A DNA stretch of 64,000 bases from Altererythrobacter sp. C41 (GTDB lineage Bacteria; Pseudomonadota; Alphaproteobacteria; Sphingomonadales; Sphingomonadaceae): assembly GCF_016803135.1 (NCBI RefSeq), contig NZ_JAEVFE010000003.1, positions 186,001 to 250,000 of the forward strand. Reading direction: 5' to 3'. Positions within the stretch are counted from its first letter, which is position 1. Every line of letters starts with the position of its first letter. A program made the position numbers and the translations under genes. Shown here piece by piece: positions 18,771-28,015 of this stretch. The notes beneath the pieces were generated by a model. That model searched no databases, was not told the DNA's origin, and worked only from the letters and a program-made list of their open reading frames with translations.

Positions 18771-19231
<461 letters not shown>

Positions 19232-19266
19232 ATTTTCGTCGTCGCGCAGCGAAAGGCCCTCATTCG

Positions 19267-27744: not shown

Positions 27745-28015
27745 TAGGGTCGAAACCCGATCAGGTCGCGGTCGTGACGGAGCGGATTTTGGCACCAGGC
27801 AAGGAGCAAGTAGGGAGCGATGTTCCTGCATCGTGACCGACGCGCGACGCTGCATGGCGTCAAGATCCGCCCGCCGCGCAGCGGTTGCCCCTGGAAGCCC
27901 GCCGAGCGGCGTCGCTGGCTTGCGCGTAGCTTTGGCTACGCGACTGCGCTGCGCTCCTTGTCAGCGGGCTTCCAGGGGCAATCACGATCCTCGACCTGAT
28001 CGGGTTTTGACCCTA
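27745..28015. repeat. Nested inverted-repeat element (three-way junction fold)
   Basis: Outer arms 27745-27777 and 27982-28015 are inverted repeats about 33 bp long with about four differences (core AAACCCGATCAGGTCG). Inside, hairpin A pairs GCGGATTTTGGC (27782-27793) with GTCAAGATCCGC (27857-27868). Hairpin B pairs TTGCCCCTGGAAGCCCGC (27883-27900) perfectly with 27964-27981, capped by CGCGTAGC-TTTG-GCTACGCG (27923-27942). Hairpin B abuts the outer right arm exactly. The whole could be a folded RNA, a MITE-like insertion or a cruciform. No transposase or target duplication is visible. Confidence 0.8.

Follow-up and report, generated by a model that had tools for sequence, protein, structure and literature searches.

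What is the long nested inverted repeat that lies just upstream of a TauE/SafE gene in Altererythrobacter sp. C41? It occupies positions 27745-28015 of the window, by which we mean the whole 64,000 nucleotide stretch of DNA analysed (contig NZ_JAEVFE010000003.1, positions 186,001 to 250,000). The original prediction offered two answers, a MITE-like element with a folded core or a structured RNA between an NfrA-like gene and the TauE gene. Bacterial MITEs are usually taken as short remnants of insertion sequences (ISs) with a dispensable inside. We believe, with a probability of about 0.7, that this is a MITE-class element inserting at TA and moved in trans by an IS5/IS427-type transposase, and that the two hairpin modules it carries in inverted orientation are maintained as single-stranded folds. 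The structured core is conserved far more broadly than expected for elements of this class.

The fold and parts of the element

The nested inverted repeat is real and far beyond chance, as had been claimed from the exactness of its packing. The segment 27740-28020 has a fold energy of -189.9 kcal/mol against -122.6 (sd 5.1) in 200 dinucleotide shuffles, a z of -13.2, and none of the 200 matches it; the opposite strand gives a z of -10.9. The outer arms (27745-27771 and 27989-28015), predicted to pair, are 93% complementary across 27 nt when found independently of the fold, and the pairing extends inward. Helix A has the twelve pairs and two G-T wobbles expected of it, with 27782-27793 pairing to 27859-27870, a slip of two bases from the 27857-27868 first proposed. 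Helix B is also present (27885-27905 with 27961-27981, 95%), its left coordinate having been placed two bases off, and it does end exactly where the right outer arm begins. The proposed three-way junction has to be given up for a four-way one, since a small hairpin, P (4 bp, 27874-27884), forms an extra arm in both the fold and the alignment. In the consensus of 58 copies the arms abut with zero unpaired columns in between.

The element itself is 267 bp (27747-28013) and is flanked by a TA dinucleotide on each side. Read on the + strand, it begins after the left TA (27745-27746) with the left outer arm (27747-27777), a terminal inverted repeat whose first ~16 bases look IS5/IS427-like, followed by inner stem. 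In the mapping from our alignment, A2, the outer stem joins 27747-27777 to 27982-28013. Arm A (27778-27873) is a long hairpin with an internal-loop motif of the type GGCAAGGAGCAAG...CGCGCGACGC, which is conserved in the 58 copies. After hairpin P comes arm B (27885-27981), a long hairpin whose reverse complement is similar to arm A, and then the right outer arm (27982-28013), the other terminal inverted repeat. The right TA (28014-28015) stands 10 bp upstream of the TauE start codon (28026).

Insertion at TA

At two loci the element is an insertion at TA, which is duplicated on insertion, the kind of target-site duplication that the original prediction proposed to look for. At the window locus three sister genomes (G001, G005 and G006) have an empty site with a single TA, reading CTCGGT-TA-GGGCTT, and the filled site reads CTCGGT-TA-GGGTCG...GACCC-TA-GGGCTT, so that the flanks overlap by TAGGG. 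The flanks align less far in G002, G003 and G004 and give no clean junction there. The second copy in the window's genome (G000 C2:20127-20344, core 86% identical) reads GCGGTC-CA-[element]-TA-GAGG and the empty site in G005 reads GCGGTC-TA-GAGG. Comparison of the two fixes the duplication as TA, one copy of which has since been altered.

Boundaries and lengths were counted in 136 of 144 loci. TA is found on the left in 91 of these, on the right in 91 and on both sides in 61, mostly in the context YTAR. Lengths of 266-270 bp account for 106 copies, while nine shorter ones measure 164-188 bp and a single long one 331 bp. The short copies that were inspected are missing most of arm B. The element is too short to code for a transposase, it has both terminal inverted repeats and a target-site duplication, and it is dispersed in several copies per genome, two in the window's genome and at least seven in some others, numbers that are lower bounds (2 to 7 candidates were scored per genome in the large searches). 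Empty sites, dispersed copies and IS-like ends together support the idea of a MITE-like element whose core is folded.

The TauE label of the adjoining gene is confirmed (PF01925). For the NfrA-like label two frames were compared with Pfam and neither matched; the gene preceding that one is a family 2 glycosyltransferase. A crude gene caller places 2 of 138 copies inside a gene. The same caller finds no preference of orientation relative to neighbouring genes (35 ++, 29 --, 32 +-, 22 -+ and 18 uncalled). The boundary is TAG or TAA at 181 of 270 element ends, and 94 of those 181 are preceded by at least 100 open codons. Control TAR triplets elsewhere in the flanks have a frame open for at least 80 codons in 81 of 383 cases, so the boundary is often the stop codon of the neighbour.

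Covariation in the core

Comparison of the copies shows that the predicted four-way-junction fold of outer stem, arm A, hairpin P and arm B is conserved with covariation. Alignment A2 holds 58 of 72 core-hit loci, leaving out 12 that are truncated, broken or cut, one duplicate and one with an insertion. RNAalifold on the 58 copies gives 93 pairs, of which 82 have at least one compensated double change. In the named structure paired cells make up 95.3% of the total. The corresponding figures are 70.7% for shuffles, where relatedness persists, and 36-42% when partners are shifted by 1-3 columns, a control flattered by the derivation of the structure from the same sequences. Not one of 500 shuffles reaches any of the five pairing measures. 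The further copies and compensatory changes that the original prediction proposed to look for are thus both present.

Arm A is similar to arm B once the latter is reverse-complemented. They then have GGCAAGGAGCG and GCGACGCCG in common, and their similarity is higher than the average of shuffles in 55 of 58 copies; in 57 it is also higher than when both arms are compared on the same strand. We rejected the reverse-strand profile matches of the core as a sign of homology between the arms, because in these matches each arm is aligned with the complement of itself.

The covariation could in principle be a by-product of template switching or repair in a long palindrome, with no selection on the fold. 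Where two copies have a core identity of 80-90%, changed outer pairs are altered on both sides in 169 of 196 and 173 of 210 cases, as that explanation would have it, and the near equality of G-U and A-C in the outer stem (below) also suits it. However, in the same pairs of copies the changes in arm A are mostly one-sided, with only 44 of 175 on both sides. Length, junction and unpaired motifs are kept across families, and the motifs common to A and the reverse complement of B argue the same way. We consider a mere by-product quite unlikely.

RNA stem or double-stranded site

Selection on an RNA stem should leave G-U pairs far above A-C mismatches. Our reference is RNase P RNA (29 of 30 loci used), in which G-U:A-C is 102:11 across 29 genomes, or 216:11 without the commonest-pair filter. 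One such gene lies in the window itself (RF00010, 243.7 bits, ~18772-19234, + strand; G000 C3:204772-205234). The two parts of the element's outer stem give 31:27 and 17:15. Since G-U and A-C are about equal, the complementarity comes from identity of the terminal repeats rather than from an RNA stem, and the outer stem behaves as two copies of a double-stranded site. The ratio is 4:2 in hairpin P, 78:18 in arm A, with 24 of the 78 G-U cells in two columns (55/128 and 56/127), and 17:57 in arm B, where 26 of the 57 A-C cells fall in three columns (171/244, 173/242 and 198/216) that are perhaps not true pairs. The opposite asymmetry of the two arms is expected if each works on its motif-bearing strand. 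The arms may act as single-stranded folds, of DNA or RNA, and given its G-U excess arm A may have a role as RNA.

These ratios bear on the idea of a functional structured RNA aboard a mobile element, in which the transcript from one strand would be under selection. The strong conserved fold, its covariation and the excess in arm A all speak for it, and prokaryotic MITE transcripts are said to form stable stem-loops (PMC10969869). However, the outer stem and arm B are far from the RNase P ratio, the covariance model matches both strands in most copies, and there is the lack of a preferred gene orientation under the crude caller. The Rfam search for the window's copy (E threshold 10) returned nothing above the gathering threshold, in agreement with the claim that no known RNA is recognised, and that of 20 loci returned one tRNA and no other match. 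We think such an RNA unlikely, and the proposal of a structured RNA lying between the NfrA-like gene and TauE finds no support in the form first given.

Relatives beyond the genus

By blastn the element is present in 4 of 7 genomes of the genus; for the family, where two candidates per genome were scored, the figure is 51 of 397. The wider search used a covariance model built from the 58 copies, whose E-values are rough and whose order, class and phylum draws partly overlap. At the level of the order, 60 of 246 genomes contain relatives, and ten of the 60 belong to six families other than the window's. The class gives 39 of 337, with 37 from beyond that family, and the phylum 51 of 398, with 34 from other classes. 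The 42 loci that match best among those from other families are 269-283 bp long, have TAG at both ends in 32 cases, at one end in four and at neither in six, and have fold energies from -225.6 to -116.0 kcal/mol. Copies within one genome are often mutual closest relatives, such as L053 and L068 in G126, with a core identity of 0.99.

An exact motif scan finds, among the 80 of 120 stretches listed, Sphingomonas, Qipengyuania, Porphyrobacter, Croceibacterium, Tsuneonella, Sphingosinicella and others. Among the motif matches listed is one (L389) in a record titled Arthrobacter sp. TPD3018, which could be a mislabel or a case of the element having crossed phyla. With the window element or L039 as query the plasmid search gave zero matches; with a relative from another class it gave four records (Pseudomonas aeruginosa, Halomonas and two Azotobacter) at 74.5-79.6%, none overlapping an annotated feature. 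The P. aeruginosa relative (L484, NZ_CP017294.1 8548-8817) is unannotated, lies five bases past the end of an acyl-CoA dehydrogenase gene, and sits on a plasmid typed conjugative. We found no account of the element in the open-access PMC literature, subscription papers being outside that scope. The survey in PMC2267715 appears to take in no Alphaproteobacteria other than Brucella and Rickettsia.

Partial matches to the model were considered as candidate autonomous partners and rejected. The 17 of 20 that were inspected, with 70 bases on each side, proved instead to be lone arm-A hairpins or one-arm, short or complete elements. The lone arm-A-type hairpins, possibly a separate REP-like family, are ~90-110 bp without outer terminal repeats (L440-L446 in G662 and G760, L447 in G839); G662 has at least five. 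Three loci of ~170 bp (L449 and L450 in G1116, L451 in G1127) hold a single arm within terminal repeats. The lone hairpins and one-arm elements together suggest that the basic unit may be the hairpin of arm A.

The outer arms and IS5/IS427-type ISs

The ends can part company with the core. L044 and L064, in one genome, are 92% identical in the core and 42% and 37% in the arms; the figures are 89%, 21% and 16% for L060 and L091, and 89%, 37% and 47% for the window copy and L033. Over 28 pairs with a core identity of at least 85% the left arms range from 21 to 100%, with a mean of 65%, so other close pairs retain their arms.

Comparison of the ends shows a resemblance to putative terminal repeats of the IS5 family (IS427 group). 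PF13340 transposases are found in 8 of 17 element-bearing genomes tested and in 3 of 7 genomes of the genus. The window's own genome and G001, G002 and G005 have no match to PF13340, which weighs against our reading. The ISs with these transposases start, after TA, with GGGTCAGGACYCATTG in G247, GGGTSTGRACYCAATT in G410, GGCTGTGGTGAC in G115 and GGCCGYGTTGACAAAA in G126, where a further start reads T(N)A-GAGYCTGATYC; that in G398 starts with GGGTCAAAACCCAATC (a weaker pair). G004 has an IS beginning with TA and GGGTCCGGACYCAT, and no copy of the element was found in that genome. About ten of the 26 PF13340 loci had no clear IS ends. When compared with 272 element ends, the G410 IS (L230) equals the end of an element in the same genome (L166) at 16 of 16 bases. 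For the G398 IS (L228), from another family, the agreement is with the window's right end, at 15 of 16; the maximum in permuted controls is 12-13. Two of the six IS types compared are clearly above control, two stand at 13 against a maximum of 12 and two are within the controls. The ISs here are 837-855 bp, and the IS427-group elements in Table 2 of PMC3281130 are 832-865 bp with 2-bp duplications, one having 4 bp. None of six ISs inspected has A/B hairpin modules at its ends. The arm-only pattern of G126 gave 13 matches in 4 of 11 genomes. Those outside full elements are a 49-bp remnant (L153) or lack an inverted partner in the locus (L149, L158 and L159).

The ends also bear on whether the element is REPIN-like, with an HUH (RAYT-like) transposase moving it in the form of single-stranded DNA. 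It has two inverted hairpin modules, and the lone arm-A hairpins of G662 and G760 do without terminal repeats. However, the TA duplication at two loci and the IS5/IS427-like ends both fit a DDE enzyme; to our knowledge HUH transposons leave no target duplication. No transposase is known for the CGTC-tagged REPs found in Alphaproteobacteria (PMC3733652), which leaves some room for the idea. We hold it to be very unlikely.

A model for movement and conservation

We infer the movement, the transposase partner and the role of the core as follows. In the MITE reading that we prefer, an IS5/IS427-type DDE transposase made elsewhere would bind the outer arms in double-stranded form, as terminal repeats, and move the element in trans. 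The complementarity of the outer arms would follow from the need for both ends to suit a single enzyme, and for the same reason they would be free to differ among copies with a nearly identical core. The core would consist of two hairpin modules in inverted orientation, A on the + strand and B on the - strand, flanking the small central hairpin, and each would be kept as a single-stranded fold on its motif-bearing strand. The single-stranded form is most likely DNA during replication or transposition, and possibly RNA.

A wider reading is more tentative, and we would not yet bet on it. There may be a phylum-wide superfamily of transposable elements with a conserved DNA four-way junction, whose exchangeable terminal repeats fit any IS5-type transposase at hand and whose hairpin modules work single-stranded, as DNA or as RNA from both strands. 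With exchangeable ends around hairpin modules, the heritable core of such a superfamily would be the fold and not the ends.

From genus to phylum the core retains the same architecture and almost the same length while nearly every pair has changed on both sides, and the ends can be unrelated between copies with ~90% identical cores. Two ideas thereby become directly testable: that a non-coding transposon is under selection for its folded shape, and that its terminal repeats can be changed. The element is thus a testable case of a transposon that keeps its folded shape while its sequence changes. The covariance model would let annotators label intergenic repeats that are now unannotated, including the one on the conjugative plasmid of P. 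aeruginosa.

Comparison with known systems

ERIC elements of the Enterobacteria are ~127 bp, palindromic and have a TA target; the element here is twice as long and has a four-way junction. CGTC-tagged REPs and REPINs are inverted hairpins dispersed in Proteobacteria, as this element is. REPs are 20-40 bp (PMC3733652), whereas our element has ~96-nt arms, terminal repeats and a TA duplication, and so falls outside the REP/REPIN definition of 20-40 bp hairpin units with a GTAG or CGTC tag. The IS427 group of the IS5 family (PMC3281130) has the same 2-bp duplication and appears to have the same type of end sequence; the element differs in having no transposase gene. MITEPsy1 of Pseudomonas syringae is like it in its non-coding body, IS5-family-like terminal repeats and TA-containing target (PMC3189936). 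However, MITEPsy1 is 100 nt long with a 4-nt duplication and a narrow distribution, whereas the element described here is 267 bp, makes a 2-nt duplication, and has a four-way-junction core and relatives throughout the phylum.
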